From contig JASEFK010000019.1 of assembly GCA_030019255.1 (NCBI GenBank), positions 1 to 38,260 of the forward strand: a DNA stretch of 38,260 nt. The letters run 5' to 3'. The notes beneath the pieces are model-generated. The model made no database searches, was not told the DNA's origin, and saw only the letters and a program-made list of their open reading frames with translations. The position numbers and the translations under genes are program-made. The number at the start of each line of letters is the position of its first letter. Position 1 is the stretch's first letter. Positions 11,541 to 18,948 of the stretch are shown one piece after another. This DNA is from Actinomycetota bacterium. Its GTDB lineage: Bacteria; Actinomycetota; Geothermincolia; Geothermincolales; RBG-13-55-18.

Positions 11541-13043
11541 ATGGCTGTCGGTGGGAGAAGGATAGTGGTCATAGGGTCGGGCGTGGGGGGTGCGGGAGTG
11601 GCCGCCCTCCTCCAGGCCCGGGGCCACCGGGTGACCTTATTGGAAAAAAATGCCTTCTACGGCGGGAAGTGCTGGTCCTTCGAGAAGGACGGCTTCCTGG
11701 TGGATTCCGGGGTGCACATGTTCTCCATGGGCGCCTCCGGCCAACACGGGGACATCAACCGCCGGGTGCGGGGCGACCTGGAGTGGCTGACCGCCCAGCC
11801 CAGCGAACACCTCCTCATCGGGGGGAAGTACCGCATCAACCTCTACCAGAGCCCCTTCGACCCCCGCATGGCCCTGGACAACGCAGCCTCCCAGCTGGCC
11901 ATGCTGAAGGATAGGCTCCTGGCGCGCGGAGGAAAGGGTTCCGGCGTCACCAGGCTCCAGAACGAGGTCTACCGGGCCTCCCGGAAGAACACCTTCCTGG
12001 AATCCCTCCTGGCAGCGGCGAAGATAGCCCGCCTGAACCCCTCCTACCTCGTGGAGCTGGACGAGATAACCCTGCAGGAGTTCCTGCACCGCGTGACCGA
12101 GGACCGCACGGTACTGCAGGGCATGGCCGCCCTCTCCATGCTCCTGACCGTGGTCCCCTACCACCGGGTGAGCGCCGGGGAGTTCTTGTGGTGTGTCATC
12201 AACATCTTCCGCAAGAAGACCCTGGGGGTTCCCCGCGGCGGTTCGCGGGAGATACCCGGGGCCTTTCTGCGCTCCTTCCTGCGCGACGGGGGGGAGCTGC
12301 GCCTGAACTGCGAGGTCAAGAGCATCGTGGTGAAGGAGGGGAAGGCGCGAGGGGTGGTCACCGCGGAAGGCGAGGAGATCCCCGCCGACCTGGTGATCTC
12401 CAACGCGGGCATCAAGCGGACGGTGGAGATGGCCGGGGAGGAGAACTTTCCCGAGGAATACGTCTCCTACGTCAAAGGGCTGAAGGATTCCTATTCCTTC
12501 ATCACCGTCAAGTACGGCCTCGACCGGCGGGTGATCGACCTTCCGGCTCCAAGCTTCTTCAACATCCCCAACCTGGACCCCGACCACATGTTCGACTACC
12601 TGGAGAAGGGCGGGCTTCCCGAGGACCCCTTCCTCTTCACTCCCCTGCCCTCGGAGTGGGACCCCTACGCGGCTCCGCCGGGCAAGCAGCTGGTGATCAT
12701 GGGGGTGCCCGGGCCCATCGAGGTCAACCGGGAGAACGTGGAGTGGTGCGAGCGCATCCTGGACCGGGCGGAGGAGAGACTTATGGAAATATTTCCCAAC
12801 CTGCAGCCCCACGTGGAATGGAAGATGCGCACCCACATCGCTCACACCGCGTCCATCACCGGCAAGCCCACCGGCGAATGCATAGGCCTGGCCCAGTGCG
12901 TGGGACAGACGGGGGTACACAAGCCCACCCCCTGGACCCCGGTCCGGGACCTGTGGCTGGTGGGCGCGGACGCCGGCGCGCGGGGCGTGGGAACGGAGCA
13001 GGCGGCGGGAAGCGCCCTCTACGTTGCCAATCTCCTGGGGTGA
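11541..13043 (+). CDS. CrtI-family (phytoene desaturase-like) FAD oxidoreductase
   Basis: Encodes 500 residues, the usual size for the CrtI/CrtN/retinol-saturase family. The ATG follows GGGAGG at about eight bases. The N-terminus shows VVIGSGVGGAGVAALLQARGHRVTLLEKNAFYGGKCWSF, an FAD Rossmann motif with the G-G-K/R-x motif of the desaturases, then DSGVHMFSMG. The central part has PRGGSREIPGAFLRSFLRDGGELRLNCEVKSIVVKEGKARGV, the typical second FAD-contact segment, and LVISNAG. The C-terminus has LWLVGADAGARGVGTEQAAGSALYVAN, matching the family's closing G-x-x-x-x-P-G-x-G block with a variant sequence. No phytoene synthase or other carotenoid gene is present, so a carotenoid role is unsupported. 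It may act with paralogue 4 upstream on a lipid-like substrate. It ends seven bases before the stop of the convergent AOR gene. Confidence 0.82.
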   Translation: MAVGGRRIVVIGSGVGGAGVAALLQARGHRVTLLEKNAFYGGKCWSFEKDGFLVDSGVHMFSMGASGQHGDINRRVRGDLEWLTAQPSEHLLIGGKYRINLYQSPFDPRMALDNAASQLAMLKDRLLARGGKGSGVTRLQNEVYRASRKNTFLESLLAAAKIARLNPSYLVELDEITLQEFLHRVTEDRTVLQGMAALSMLLTVVPYHRVSAGEFLWCVINIFRKKTLGVPRGGSREIPGAFLRSFLRDGGELRLNCEVKSIVVKEGKARGVVTAEGEEIPADLVISNAGIKRTVEMAGEENFPEEYVSYVKGLKDSYSFITVKYGLDRRVIDLPAPSFFNIPNLDPDHMFDYLEKGGLPEDPFLFTPLPSEWDPYAAPPGKQLVIMGVPGPIEVNRENVEWCERILDRAEERLMEIFPNLQPHVEWKMRTHIAHTASITGKPTGECIGLAQCVGQTGVHKPTPWTPVRDLWLVGADAGARGVGTEQAAGSALYVANLLG

Positions 13044-13050
13044 GGAGGTT

Positions 13051-14871
13051 TCACAGGTCCAGCTTGTCCGGCGGTACCCTCCCATCCTCGTCCAGCCCGG
13101 CCAGGCGGTAGAACTCCCCGAGCATGAGCTCCATGTCCGGGACCGAGCCGGCGTTGGCCCCCTCCCGGGTGGGAGTGAGCGCCTTGGGGGGGAGGACGTC
13201 GTCGTTGCGCCCCGAACCGCGCAGGTTGAGGATGTGCCGCTTCAGGTACCATATCCTCCAGCCGCACTCCATGAGCTCGTCCAGGGTCCAGTCGAAGCCG
13301 CTGGCGGCGCGCATCATCTCCACCTGGTCGTGCAGGGAGAGGAAGGCGCCGATGAACTCGCACATGCACATGGAGTTGAACAGCTGGCCCACGGAGAGGC
13401 ACTTCCAGGTGAGCTCCGCCTTCCCCTTGCTGGTCATCCCCTTGAAGGGCCCCTTGAGGCCTATCTCCGGCCAGGAGGCCATGCCCCCCTCGATGAGGAG
13501 GTTGGTGGTGTTGAGGTGGCAGGCCCCCCGCGCCCCCACGGCGTAACCCAGCCCGTAACCGTGGAACCCGCGCGGGTCGTGGGCCGGGAAATCCAGCCCC
13601 CGCACGGTGACCGCCAGCTCGGGGGCCCCCAGCTCCCGCGCCAGGGCCCGGGAACCCTGGGCCATGCGCTCCCCGAAGCCCTCCCGGGCGGCGGTGAGGC
13701 GGATGGCCTCCAGGGCCGCCTCCATGTTCCCCCAGGAGAAGTCCAGCCCGGTATCCGAGGGCGAGACCAGGCCCTTCTCCTGGGCCTCCATGAGCAGGGC
13801 GATGACCGAGCCCATGGCGATGGTGTCCATCCCCAGCCGGTTGCACAAATCGTTGGCCTTGGCTACCGCCTCCAGGCTGGGGTTGAGGAGGTTGGTGCCC
13901 ATCATGCACACCGTCTCGTACTCCGGGCCCGCGTGCTCCTCCATGGCGTAGGGACCCTCTTCCACCCTGACCACCCGCTTGCAGCGCACCGTGCAGGCGT
14001 AGCAACCCGTGGTCTTCACCAGGATGTGGTCGTTGTAGTAGAAGGAGTTCAGGGTGTCCAGGGCCTCCATCCACTCCCCCACGTTCCAGTTACGGATGGG
14101 GATGTCCCCGGAGAGCATCCCCGTGTCCAGGGCCCCGTTGGTCCCCATCTCGTGGAGGGTCTGGGCCAGGAGGTGGTTGGCCAGCTTATCGGCCACCGCC
14201 TTGCGGACCTCCCGGGCCCTCTCCGGGTCGGCGTATCCCATCTTCCCTCCGCCGCGCACGGCCACCGCCTTGAGGTTCTTGCTCCCCATCACCGCCCCCA
14301 GGCCGCAACGCCCGGCCACGCTTCCCATCTCGTTGACGATGTTGGCGAAGCGCACCCCCTTCTCGCCCGCCGGCCCTATCTGCATGGTGCGCACCAGCCC
14401 CCCATCTCCCTTCAGTTCCTCCTGCAGGCGTTCGTTGACCGTATAAGTGTCCAGGCCCCAGAGATGGGAAGCGTCGCGGAGCTCGGCCCGCCCGCCGTCA
14501 ATCCAGAGGTACACGGGTGCATCGGCCATTCCCACCAGCACCACGCCGTCCAGGCCGGCCAGCTTCATGGCAGCCCCGAAGGCCCCGCCCACGTTGCACT
14601 CCCCCCAGAGGCCGGTCAGCGGCGAGAGGGCCACCACCGAGGAACGCCCGCTGCCCGGGAAATTGGTGCCCGTCAGGGGCCCGTCCAGGAACATCAGGGG
14701 AGCCTCTGGGGAGAGGGGATCCGCCAGGGGATCGTGCTCCTTGAGCATGAGGTAAGCGCCGAGCCCCGTGCCTCCCACGTACTTGCGGAAGACCTCCTCC
14801 CCCAGCTCCCTTTCCTCCACCTTCCTGCTTCCCAGGTCCACCAGAAGGTATTTGCCGCAGAAACCTCTCAT
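13051..14871 (-). CDS. Aldehyde:ferredoxin oxidoreductase family tungsten/molybdenum enzyme
   Basis: Encodes 606 residues from the ATG at 14871 (MRGFCGKYLLVDLGS) with GGAGGAA upstream, the same length as archaeal AOR. The N-terminal domain has YVGGTGLGAYLM; the pterin-binding region has VGRCGLGAVMGSKNLKAVAVRG. The 4Fe-4S ligands are visible: C290-x2-C293-x3-C297 (GCYACTVRC) and C504 (MCMCEF), matching the four cysteines of P. furiosus AOR (288, 291, 295, 494). The C-terminal FDWTLDELMECGWRIWYLKRHILNLR...NDDVLPPK is characteristic. The enzyme should oxidise an aldehyde to an acid with ferredoxin, or run the reverse reaction, in the cytoplasm. It is last in a minus-strand group after the methyltransferase (31-base gap). 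Substrate and metal cannot be told from sequence. Confidence 0.93.
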   Translation of the reverse strand: MRGFCGKYLLVDLGSRKVEERELGEEVFRKYVGGTGLGAYLMLKEHDPLADPLSPEAPLMFLDGPLTGTNFPGSGRSSVVALSPLTGLWGECNVGGAFGAAMKLAGLDGVVLVGMADAPVYLWIDGGRAELRDASHLWGLDTYTVNERLQEELKGDGGLVRTMQIGPAGEKGVRFANIVNEMGSVAGRCGLGAVMGSKNLKAVAVRGGGKMGYADPERAREVRKAVADKLANHLLAQTLHEMGTNGALDTGMLSGDIPIRNWNVGEWMEALDTLNSFYYNDHILVKTTGCYACTVRCKRVVRVEEGPYAMEEHAGPEYETVCMMGTNLLNPSLEAVAKANDLCNRLGMDTIAMGSVIALLMEAQEKGLVSPSDTGLDFSWGNMEAALEAIRLTAAREGFGERMAQGSRALARELGAPELAVTVRGLDFPAHDPRGFHGYGLGYAVGARGACHLNTTNLLIEGGMASWPEIGLKGPFKGMTSKGKAELTWKCLSVGQLFNSMCMCEFIGAFLSLHDQVEMMRAASGFDWTLDELMECGWRIWYLKRHILNLRGSGRNDDVLPPKALTPTREGANAGSVPDMELMLGEFYRLAGLDEDGRVPPDKLDL

Positions 14872-14902
14872 CACCCGTTCCTCCTCGCTCTTTTCCACCT
14901 CA

Positions 14903-15808
14903 TCATCGCATCCCAGGATCCCAGCTTTCCGCCGCATCGCTCCGTATCTCATTTTTCGCCGCGCCTTCGGGCCCCAACGGCTTCTCACCCCAGACGAAAC
15001 AGCAGGGCAGGATGTCCCGGTAGGAGAAACGCCGCGACTCCTCGGCCCAGCGCCGCACCAGGCGTTCTATTTCCTCCTCGCGCATGCCCCCCTCGAGCAG
15101 CCGCTCGAGGGGGGACAGCCGGCCTGGAAGTGCTTCTTCCAGTTCCTTCCAGGCCTCTTCCGCGTCCCGGAAGGGACGGGTGACGTCCGCGTACCAGACG
15201 AAGAAGTCCACCCTCGTAAATCCCGCCTCCCGGACCTCCCGGACCAGGTCGGAACGGCGGAAGGAATAGGCGGGGTGGTTATCCCTCAGGATGGCCGTGG
15301 CCTTCTCCCAGAGGGGAAGCTCGAGGTCCCAGTTCACCAGCAGCTCTTCCTCCACCAGCAGGGGCTCGCAGACGGAAAGCCTCCCCCCGGGTCGCAGGAC
15401 GCGGAAGCACTCCTTAAGGACTTTCGAGCGGTCCTCCAGGTAGGAGAACACCGACCTCGCCACCACCGCATCTGCCTCGCCCGCGGGAAGCGGCAGGTTG
15501 GTGATCTCCGCGTACACCGGGCTCACGTTGGCCAGGCCGGCTTCCTCGACCTTTACGCGCAGCTCCTCCAGGGCCTCCCGGTCCGCGTCCACGGCATATA
15601 CCCTGCCTTCCGGTCCCACCAGCCGCGCCGCTTCCAGGGAAAGGAGCCCCAGGCCGCATCCCAGGTCCACCACCACGGCACCGGGCCTCAAGCCGGCCTG
15701 GGCAAGCACCCGGTCCCTCGCCTGGCAACGGAGAAGGGTGGCCCACCTGTTCCGGGAAGCCTCCCGCTCCACGCCGTCCAGCCATCCCGCCCAGGGATCG
15801 GTGGGCAA
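14903..15808 (-). CDS. Class I SAM-dependent methyltransferase
   Basis: Encodes 301 residues from a TTG at 15808, chosen because GGGAGGTG lies about eight bases upstream. The SAM-binding motif I is VVDLGCGLGLLSLEAA (about residues 46-61), followed by the acidic strand-2 end VYAVDADREALEEL, motif II-like DAVVARSVFSYLEDR, and post-motif VLRPGGRLSVCEP. This is a Methyltransf_11/25-type Rossmann fold, similar in layout to UbiE/MenG and arsenite-type methyltransferases. The C-terminal third (EEAWKELEEALPGRLSPLERLLEGGMREEEIERLV) is helical and may bind substrate. It lies between the SCP2-like gene and AOR on the same strand, so a lipid or quinone-like substrate is plausible but not shown. Confidence 0.85.
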   Translation of the reverse strand: MPTDPWAGWLDGVEREASRNRWATLLRCQARDRVLAQAGLRPGAVVVDLGCGLGLLSLEAARLVGPEGRVYAVDADREALEELRVKVEEAGLANVSPVYAEITNLPLPAGEADAVVARSVFSYLEDRSKVLKECFRVLRPGGRLSVCEPLLVEEELLVNWDLELPLWEKATAILRDNHPAYSFRRSDLVREVREAGFTRVDFFVWYADVTRPFRDAEEAWKELEEALPGRLSPLERLLEGGMREEEIERLVRRWAEESRRFSYRDILPCCFVWGEKPLGPEGAAKNEIRSDAAESWDPGMR

Positions 15809-15978: not shown

Positions 15979-16413
15979 TCAGTCCTCCTCTTCCTCCTCC
16001 ACGATGAGGTTCTCCAGGCCCTTCTCCCGGAGGAGGTTCTTGTAGACGTCGTAGGCCGGCTTGATGACCGGGAGCATCTTCAGGAGGCGGGGCATGGAGC
16101 CCTCGGCCTCGATCTCGCCGCTGGAAAGGGCTCCCAACAGGTTGAGCTGCCCGCACCAGAAGCGGTGGGCGGTGTCCAGCTCCATGGACATGATCGCGTC
16201 GGGGGTCATCTCCTCTCCCGGCCCTCCGGGATAGACCTTCACCTCGTCTCCCCGGCAGTCCACCCAGAATTCCCCCTCGGGGTTCCGGTAGACGAACCTG
16301 ACTAGGAGCCTGGAGTCGAGGGCCTTCTGCCGTATCCGGGGGTCCTTCATCAGGGCTTCGAAAACCCCGACCAGGAGATCGTAGAAGACCTGGATATCCT
16401 GGAAATAGGGCAT
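15979..16413 (-). CDS. SCP2 sterol-binding-like domain protein
   Basis: Encodes 144 residues, the size of a free-standing SCP2 domain. The central part resembles the SCP2 fold: VRFVYRNPEGEFWVDCRGDEVKVYPGG, then PDAIMSMELDTAHRFWCGQLNLLGALSSGEIEAEGSMPRLLKMLPVIKP. The last stretch matches the family pattern of a helix with an amide-rich loop followed by G-x-I-x-x-x-G and a hydrophobic helix. SCP2 domains bind acyl-CoA, fatty acid or sterol-type lipids. The ATG at 16413 follows AGGAGGAGGTC. The C-terminus is a run of glutamates (EEEEED). It heads the minus-strand group with the methyltransferase (170-base gap) and AOR, and a lipid carrier or scaffold role for that group is inference. Confidence 0.75.
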   Translation of the reverse strand: MPYFQDIQVFYDLLVGVFEALMKDPRIRQKALDSRLLVRFVYRNPEGEFWVDCRGDEVKVYPGGPGEEMTPDAIMSMELDTAHRFWCGQLNLLGALSSGEIEAEGSMPRLLKMLPVIKPAYDVYKNLLREKGLENLIVEEEEED

Positions 16414-16781
16414 GACCTCCTCCTTTCATCCCTCTTCAACCGGGAGACCCACTACTCAAATCCCTTTACTCCTCAAATCCCTTTATACGATCGGATATCG
16501 GCTCCCGAGGTGCCCCCGCCTTATTACTTTCCCCCTTGCGGGCCGGGTAATCCGCTTTCTGAGGGAAAGTAAAGGAAGGGGAATCTCCGGGAACCGTCGT
16601 TTTTCGGCGGGTGAGGGGCCTTCCCAGTATGGCGCGCGTCCTGGGAGGGGTAAACGGACAACTCCACGGAAGGCCCTCACCCAAAAGCTGTTCCCTCGAA
16701 GTGCTTTAAGCACGCGGAAGACCTTGAATTACAGTGGGAAATTCAGGCCTGGTACGTCGTCGAACCGGCGGCGCGCGGACG
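16414..16781 (-). ncRNA. Long structured leader upstream of the SCP2/methyltransferase/AOR group
   Basis: The predicted transcript start near 16781 leaves about 370 untranslated bases. Two strong inverted repeats are visible. GGGTGAGGGGCCTTCC (16609-16624) pairs with GGAAGGCCCTCACCC (16668-16682), 15 pairs with one bulged G, and encloses a smaller TCCCAG/CTGGGA stem. TTACTTTCCC (16524-16533) pairs with GGGAAAGTAA (16563-16572). Close to the gene, CTCAAATCCCTTTA is repeated at 16455 and 16472. Neither large stem ends in a U-run in the transcribed direction. It could be a cis-regulatory RNA or an accumulation of old inverted repeats. I do not recognise a known riboswitch consensus. Confidence 0.4.
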
Positions 16782-16787
16782 AAACTT

Positions 16788-16816
16788 AAGTTAACACGCC
16801 CCGCCTCCCATGTCAA
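16788..16816 (-). promoter_or_regulatory. Sigma-70-type promoter for the SCP2/methyltransferase/AOR group
   Basis: On the minus strand a perfect TTGACA (16816-16811) is followed after exactly 17 bases by TAACTT (16793-16788). The only minus-strand gene downstream is the SCP2-like gene, 370 bases away. Confidence 0.55.
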
Positions 16817-16941
16817 CGCAGGCCATCCGAACGGCGGTTAACCGGTTGAACGTACGGGAGATCTCCCTTCTTCCTGCCCGCCTTGCTTGTTTTTTCAGGA
16901 TGACAGGTTAGCCTTCCGATCCAGGCTTACCCGGAAAGGGT

Positions 16942-16973
16942 CCACCGGAACGATGTGGTACTCGTACCGGTGG
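16942..16973 (-). terminator. Inverted repeat downstream of the ABC-class ATPase gene
   Basis: CCACCGG (16942-16948) pairs with CCGGTGG (16967-16973), starting about 26 bases beyond the ATPase stop codon. The loop is 18 bases and no U-run follows, so this is a weak terminator candidate only. Confidence 0.35.
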
Positions 16974-16998: not shown

Positions 16999-18705
16999 TC
17001 AGGCCTTCACGGTAAAGGTACGCAGCCGGTTCATGGCCGCCGCCAGCTCGAAACCGCGGAAGGCGGCGTAATCCCCCCGATTGGGAGGTCCTATGACATC
17101 CAGCCCCTTCCGGCTCACGTCATCCATCACCTTGTTCACCACCTCCCTCACCGTGGCCTTCCCATCCATGTAGCGGGTGGCGTAGTGGAGCGCGTGCCCG
17201 ATGGCCCGGGTCTGGCTCTCGTCCACCAATTGTTCCACGCTGGAGAGGTCGATGGTCTCCCCCCCGAACTCGATGGCCCGCACCCCGCGGGCGCGTATCT
17301 TGACCTTGCCCCTCCTCTGGGGATCCACGCTACGGGCCAGGGGAACGCGGTGCTTCAGGGTACCGAAGGAATCGCCTCCCTCGGCCGCCCTGCGGGCCAC
17401 GTGCTCGGCGGCGATGGCCCGGGCCTGCTCTGTTACGTCGCGCGGTTCATAGTTGACCATGCAAACCACGTGGTGGGCGACGTCGAAGTAGTCGCCGGAG
17501 CCACCGATGACCAGGATGACCGAGACGCCGTAGTCCCGGAAGAGCTGCCCGGCCTTGTCGATGAAGGGGGTAATGGGCTCGAACTCCTTGGGCACCAGCT
17601 TCTGCATGCGCTCGTCGCGGATCATGAAGTTGGTGGCCGAGGTGTCCTCGTCGATGAGCAGCAGCGTGGCCCCCACCTCCAGGGCCTCGATGATGTTGGC
17701 GGCCTGGGAGGTGCTTCCGCTGGCGTTGTCCGTGCAGAAGGCGGTGGTGTCCTGGCCGAAGGGGAGGCCGCGGATGAAGGTGGAGATATCCACCTTCTCG
17801 ATGCGCCTCCCGTCCTCCGCCCTGATCTTCACCGCCCCCGGGTCGGCCACCACCAGCTCCCTGCCGTCCCCGGGAACGTGGTTGTACACCCCCAGCTCCA
17901 GGGCGTTCAACACCGTGGATTTACCGTGGTACCCGCCGCCCACGATGAGGGTGATACCAACCGGGATGCCCATACCGGTGACCCGGCCACGGTTGGGAAG
18001 CTCCACCTCCACTCGCAGGGAGGGTGGCGACTGGAAGGGTATCACCCTCCCCGTGGTGAGGGGCCTTGGGTCCACCCCGCTCCTCCGGGGCAGGACGGCC
18101 CCGTCGGCGATGAAGGCCGCCAGCCCCATCTCCCGGAGCTTTCCCCTCAGGTAGTCGGCGTCCTCGTTGGTCTCCACGTGCCGGTACAGGGCTCCCCGGT
18201 CCAGTCTCTCGAAGAAGAGCGAACCGGCCACGATATGGGGAAGCTCGCGGAAGAACATCTCCTCCGCCTCCCTCCCGGCGATGCTGCGGCCGTAGGCCGG
18301 AAGGCCTACCGCGAACCTGGCCTCCACCCACCTCTCGTCCACCAGCACCGAGGTCCTCTCCAGGATCTCCTGGTGGGGGCGGTCGATGGTTATGAGCCCG
18401 CTCTTGCCGCTGCCCCTCTTTCCCTCCCTTACCTGCTCGGCCAGGTCGTAGAACCTCCGGGTGAGGAAATCCCGCAGCCCCACCTCCCGACTGCGACCGG
18501 TGAAGGTGTCGCGGGGGAAGCGCGCCTTCTCCTGGGGAACCCTAACGATGACGTTGCTGGGGGCGGCGAAGGGGTCACCCTGCACGTGTTCCACCCAGAG
18601 GATGTAGCTCCCGAAGTCATACTGTCCCTCGATGTCCTTGTAGGCCTTGTAACCCCTTCCGTCTATGCGCCGCAGTATTCTCCTCAATTCCTCGCCGTCG
18701 CGCAT
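16999..18705 (-). CDS. Predicted ATPase of the ABC class (COG3044/PF09818 type)
   Basis: Encodes 568 residues. The ATG at 18705 is preferred because GAGGAGA lies about eight bases upstream; a GTG two codons earlier is too close to that site. The N-terminal half (about 1-230) has DGRGYKAYKDIEGQYDFGSYILWVEHVQGDPFAAPSNVIVRV and SGLITIDRP, hallmarks of this stand-alone family. The ATPase half has Walker A GGGYHGKST (K262), a signature-like ASGSTSQAANIIEALE, and Walker B LLLIDEDTSATNFMIRD. The C-terminal part has VILVIGGSGDYFDVAHHVVCMVNYEPRDVT, the switch region. No transmembrane partner or substrate-binding gene is nearby, so it is not a transporter. The trypanosome homologue MRB1590 is linked to mitochondrial RNA editing; the bacterial role is unknown. 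Last gene of the housekeeping cluster, 243 bases after the HAD gene. Confidence 0.88.
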   Translation of the reverse strand: MRDGEELRRILRRIDGRGYKAYKDIEGQYDFGSYILWVEHVQGDPFAAPSNVIVRVPQEKARFPRDTFTGRSREVGLRDFLTRRFYDLAEQVREGKRGSGKSGLITIDRPHQEILERTSVLVDERWVEARFAVGLPAYGRSIAGREAEEMFFRELPHIVAGSLFFERLDRGALYRHVETNEDADYLRGKLREMGLAAFIADGAVLPRRSGVDPRPLTTGRVIPFQSPPSLRVEVELPNRGRVTGMGIPVGITLIVGGGYHGKSTVLNALELGVYNHVPGDGRELVVADPGAVKIRAEDGRRIEKVDISTFIRGLPFGQDTTAFCTDNASGSTSQAANIIEALEVGATLLLIDEDTSATNFMIRDERMQKLVPKEFEPITPFIDKAGQLFRDYGVSVILVIGGSGDYFDVAHHVVCMVNYEPRDVTEQARAIAAEHVARRAAEGGDSFGTLKHRVPLARSVDPQRRGKVKIRARGVRAIEFGGETIDLSSVEQLVDESQTRAIGHALHYATRYMDGKATVREVVNKVMDDVSRKGLDVIGPPNRGDYAAFRGFELAAAMNRLRTFTVKA

Positions 18706-18948
18706 CCCCACATCTCCTCGTAGATTTACAGCGTCACCGCGATACCTTCCCGTGCCGTCTCCGCCGTCACCCTCTCGGTGCCCCCGCTTGAAGGCCGCCG
18801 GCCGCCGCTTCTTGCGCTCCGCCGCTCCTCGACCCGGTGCGGTCCAGGCCGCCCCCGTCCGGCGTCATGCTCCCACCCCTCCTCTCCGGGGTTTTCCCCC
18901 GCTGGAGAGCGCCTCCCGCTCCCACTACCTTCCCGCCGGCCATCCCCT

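Follow-up and report, generated by a model that had tools for sequence, protein, structure and literature searches.

A leader hairpin maintained by compensating mutations is probably a new control element of an operon for a lipid-carrier protein, a methyltransferase and an aldehyde ferredoxin oxidoreductase

The window analysed here is a 38,260-nt stretch of DNA from a Candidatus Solincola-type member of the Actinomycetota, whose close relatives are Solincola, Geothermincola and Geohydrothermomicrobium. On its minus strand, a long leader precedes an operon for an SCP2-domain lipid-carrier protein, a SAM-dependent methyltransferase and an aldehyde ferredoxin oxidoreductase (AOR). Within that leader stands a hairpin that is probably a new control element of the operon, because its shape is kept by compensating mutations and it occupies a single site in the genome. 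Judging from sequence comparison, we favor with some confidence the reading that the leader belongs to a family of cis-regulatory RNAs not yet described and would control the operon after transcription begins. It makes a concrete candidate for a new leader-RNA family; the operon that follows it is uncharacterised and probably encodes a tungsten enzyme, and the lineage is known here from metagenome assemblies. Identifying the binding partner of the hairpin would also tell the role of the operon.

Table 1. Positions of the operon genes and leader features in the window
Feature	Position	Strand	Details
Aldehyde ferredoxin oxidoreductase (AOR) gene	13051..14988	(-)	Pfam AFOR_N/AFOR_C; operon order conserved
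SAM-dependent methyltransferase gene	14903..15808	(-)	Pfam Methyltransf_25/11; adjacency to SCP2 conserved
SCP2-domain gene, first of the operon	15979..16413	(-)	Pfam PF02036, E 9.1e-05
Shine-Dalgarno-like sequence of the SCP2 gene	16416..16423	(-)	GGAGGAGG
Second stem, lineage-specific	16524..16572	(-)	z -3.6; outside the conserved element
Conserved hairpin	16609..16682	(-)	P1 outer stem, 16668-16682 with 16609-16624, one bulged base
Hairpin core	16638..16659	(-)	GUCC (16659-16656), loop with CCCCUCC (16650-16644), GGAC (16641-16638)
Conserved transcript 5' end	16769..16780	(-)	GUCCGCGCGCCG; probable start 16780
Promoter	16788..16816	(-)	TTGACA (16816-16811), 17-nt spacer, TAACTT (16793-16788)

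The operon and its promoter

All features are on the minus strand; on one side the leader and promoter are bounded by the end of an ABC-class ATPase gene (16999-18711), on the other by the SCP2 gene. SCP2 orthologues in other genomes of the order are 76-94% identical. The AOR has 1aor as its best solved relative (E 7e-121) and is most similar to tungsten AORs; it is probably a tungsten enzyme. None of the operon genes examined is a cofactor-synthesis gene. A CrtI-like FAD oxidoreductase gene (11541-13043, plus strand) is convergent with the AOR gene, an arrangement kept in relatives including the outlying genome G017, and its product may share a pathway with those of the operon.

Orthologous SCP2 leaders were collected by DNA and protein searches, giving a comparison set of ten, all from draft assemblies: nine from one family and that of G017, from another. 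A GGAGG-type sequence precedes the start codon in all ten. The initial annotation had placed a near-perfect promoter about 370 bases before the first gene. The two hexamers are present and conserved, a -35/-10 pair standing at the equivalent site in every leader with a spacer of 17 nt (18 in one genome), but "near-perfect" overstates the match: the -10 element shares three of its six positions with TATAAT, which is why a consensus promoter scan omitted the pair. It fits TAnnnT, as do the -10 elements of all ten leaders. The transcript probably starts at the G at 16780, 367 nt 5' of the SCP2 ATG (16413), and a start near this point is argued for by the conservation of both promoter and 5' end. 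The sequence GUCYGCGCRC recurs in every one of the ten leaders, 6-7 nt past the -10 element in nine and 10 nt past it in G017. In seven genomes the combined pattern of promoter and 5' end occurs solely at the SCP2 operon, and an eighth has one extra, unrelated match; taken alone as a genome-wide motif, GTCYGCGCRC was no more frequent than a backward-pattern control in most genomes. When pairing of the 5' element with other regions of the leader was sought, the best partner was not the same from genome to genome. It is uncommon to find a conserved 5' terminus together with a hairpin some distance away.

A stable hairpin with covarying outer stem

The segment 16608-16683 has a predicted folding energy of -41.8 kcal/mol (z -4.89 against dinucleotide shuffles), and none of 200 shuffles was equally stable. 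The 15-pair stem with one bulge that had been read from the sequence is present on the minus strand, and an inner stem, GUCC/GGAC, is predicted inside it. The description of the leader as strongly folded did not hold for its whole length: over 372 nt the z-score is -0.96 and 14 of 100 shuffles are equally stable. The signal lies in one hairpin and the conserved 5' end. The separate stem at 16524-16572 does fold (Table 1); it was not found in the leaders of the relatives and was rejected as part of the conserved element.

Compensatory changes in homologous leaders, which the initial annotation had suggested looking for, were found. In a structural alignment of nine sequences, P1 is paired in 95% of cells and six of its pairs have changed on both sides. 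For the whole structure, 96.3% of cells are paired with 6 double-sided pair changes, neither of which was matched in 500 shuffles, and the structure also beats every slid version of itself. Because this alignment was fitted to the structure, the stem arms were realigned by hand without gaps and G017 was added; the same stem emerged, with 94% of cells paired (reached by 0 of 2000 shuffles) and five pairs changed on both sides, a count that 90 of 2000 shuffles reach. In this gap-free alignment, position 3 of P1 is U-A, G-C or C-G in three lineages. G017 forms the same P1 stem with further compensatory pairs; its P1 also carries a G-A tandem mismatch. A MAFFT alignment had set the Solincola 3' arm one base off, and counts from it were left out.

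The second of two covariance models, built from five and then nine sequences, scores the hairpin at 83.8 bits on the transcribed strand (model R2, E 1.3e-16; E-values are rough owing to short calibration) and at 25.3 bits on the opposite strand. Together with the U-G pairs on the transcribed strand, these scores indicate that this strand is the structured one. They also weigh against a DNA-level feature, such as a protein-binding palindrome or a mobile-element remnant: the stem is a long inverted repeat near a promoter, with an apparent insertion-sequence-end remnant nearby (16858-16954), but U-G pairs would be A-C on the other strand, the stem holds a fixed position in a single copy per genome, and its conserved core is asymmetric. 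We regard this explanation as extremely improbable.

A core more conserved than the stem

CCCCUCC, and GACG immediately after the loop, are invariant in 10 of 10 aligned sequences, and the core as a whole, CCCCUCCYRRGACG, is nearly so, its conservation exceeding that of the stem. Hairpins compared inside genus g4 or g6, or across the two, share 97-99% of their aligned bases, against 62-69% identity at SCP2 third codon positions and 21-66% (gaps counted) in the leader outside the hairpin for the g4/g6 contrast; third-codon values for G014 and G017, which were compared ungapped, were left out. Outside three conserved islands (the promoter, the GUCYGCGC 5' end and the hairpin), the leader aligns poorly, and the stretch from hairpin to gene varies from 86 to 275 nt. 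The inner stem GUCC/GGAC is identical in nine sequences and in G017 pairs only in a shifted register; as it never varies among the nine, covariation neither supports nor refutes it.

This pattern of conservation bears on whether the hairpin could be a constitutive element that stabilises or protects the transcript without sensing anything. If placed in a 5' leader, a very stable stem could shield the operon mRNA, and the lack of a recognisable expression platform fits such a role; yet a plain stabilising stem needs neither an invariant internal core nor a conserved 5' end, and here the core is the better conserved part, which makes this account unlikely in our view. A leader peptide, whose translation would be sensed to attenuate the operon, is very improbable and was rejected. 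In five leaders from g4 and g6, a GTG preceded by AGG opens the peptide VKGLPG within the 5' arm, but in Solincola the frame of the GTG is shifted against the conserved bases and another peptide results, and G017 has nothing of the kind at this site. Nor are the stops at constant positions, the loop indels do not come in multiples of three, and the stretch from the hairpin to the gene holds no terminator hairpin followed by a U run.

Distribution among relatives

The covariance model finds a single significant copy per genome in 9 of the 31 genomes of the class, each 5' of an SCP2 orthologue, and these nine belong to one family (genera g1, g4 and g6). In a scan of 396 genomes sampled from the phylum, with stricter filters that could miss weak matches, the hairpin reached E <= 0.01 in no further genome. 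In G017 the equivalent hairpin is the best site of the first model in the leader (15.5 bits, E 0.0023 for 531 bases). That leader (L026, 1184-1500) keeps promoter, 5' end and hairpin despite many base changes and makes a useful outgroup. Weak matches at G006:C4 and G027:C239 (E 0.02-0.05) were treated as chance, the former being only a G/C-rich repeat, and a search of viral contigs for the exact f1 core found none.

Five members of the family that are without the leader (G004, G005, G007, G009 and G011) have no close SCP2 and no close AOR. G012 has an AOR orthologue and no leader; its contig stops within the methyltransferase gene, and since this break interrupts the operon, the genome is uninformative. 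G016 has the operon and no leader, apparently with a different coding sequence directly 5' of SCP2.

Comparison with known RNAs

Within Rfam 15, no family reached its gathering score in the window, none relevant appeared in the leader at E <= 10, and four relatives gave no relevant match. The earlier view that this structured leader belongs to no recognised class is borne out. Its suggestion of a molybdenum or tungsten cofactor (Moco/Tuco) sensor fared less well. Moco RNA, which is known from Actinobacteria too, is a multi-stem junction with up to five paired elements, P1-P5 (PMC2408646). The present leader resembles the Moco/Tuco riboswitch in being a structured leader before genes that include a Mo/W-pterin enzyme (here AOR, the third gene); unlike it, the leader has as its conserved part a single long hairpin enclosing a core, gives no Moco RNA match, and is followed first by SCP2 rather than by a cofactor or transport gene. 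Given that the AOR is closest to tungsten AORs, a cofactor signal is a possibility, but an unsupported one.

With its conserved core on a covarying 5'-leader stem before one operon, the element is like the orphan leader RNAs and riboswitch candidates that come from comparative genomics. It differs from them in being very narrowly distributed, confined to three genera of a single family apart from one divergent copy in a second family, and because of this narrowness a ligand cannot be guessed from the spread of associated genes.

A further resemblance is to the 6C and B11 small RNAs of Actinobacteria, in that an invariant, C-rich, single-stranded loop is complementary to ribosome-binding sites; B11 of mycobacteria represses by means of C-rich loops (PMC10470900). 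By this analogy, CCCCUCC may bind purine-rich ribosome-binding sites, either in cis (SCP2) or in trans as a small RNA derived from the 5'-UTR, a proposal to which we give modest weight. The invariance of CCCCUCC in all ten sequences, its place in a predicted loop and its complementarity to GGAGG speak for it, as does the purine-rich 3' part of the leader in every genome (59-73%). However, pairing of the loop with the 3' part of the leader is in no genome significantly better than in dinucleotide shuffles, so a cis anti-Shine-Dalgarno role was rejected. Moreover, the RGACG next to the C run is equally conserved, and the element, unlike 6C and B11, has one C-rich loop rather than two, carries this RGACG tail, lies in a long mRNA leader and has no Rfam match.

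A model for the leader

If the leader is a cis-regulatory RNA, P1 would hold up the nearly invariant core, which could serve as a recognition site for a small molecule or a protein, and the state of the core would set the stability of the operon mRNA or the access of ribosomes to it. We infer these two routes because the ten leaders showed no intrinsic terminator in the stretch from hairpin to gene, which makes control of translation or mRNA stability likelier than intrinsic termination. Conserved sequestering of the Shine-Dalgarno sequence was not found in these leaders.

The most speculative step is a switch in which GGAC would pair either with the local GUCC, as the inner stem, or with the GUCC at the extreme 5' end. 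The 5' GUCC/GGAC combination of nine genomes becomes GUCU/AGAC in G017, where pairing of the 5' end with the core is thereby preserved and local pairing in the same register is lost. That the 5' GUCC competes with the inner stem for GGAC, a conserved sequence, is suggestive only; it rests on one changed pair, and the odds of its arising by accident are estimated at about 1 in 10.

As in riboswitches, the conserved, covarying structure lies in a 5' leader, with covariation in P1 and conservation of the promoter and 5' end. We hold it as a tentative idea that the element might be a new riboswitch class limited to this order, in which CCCCUCCYRRGACG would sense a metabolite of the pathway or a tungsten cofactor and the 5' GUCC would displace the inner stem.

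Repeats and insertions near the leader

Near the SCP2 ribosome-binding site, positions 16451-16484 hold two tandem 17-bp copies of ACTNCTCAAATCCCTTT, which are absent from other Solincola leaders. In G013 (L020), the hairpin (ending at 1226) and SCP2 (1501) are separated by an inserted segment, probably a MITE, whose long inverted repeat, CAGGCATA...TATGCCTG, is near-perfect. Positions 16858-16954 (minus strand) are a diverged copy (72%) of a dispersed element roughly 100 bp long; this genome has 18 matches to it, G002 has 22, G003 19 and G007 24. Because several longer copies enter an apparent ORF start (MFDLxxxVxRLVSEA), the element has the appearance of an insertion-sequence left end.
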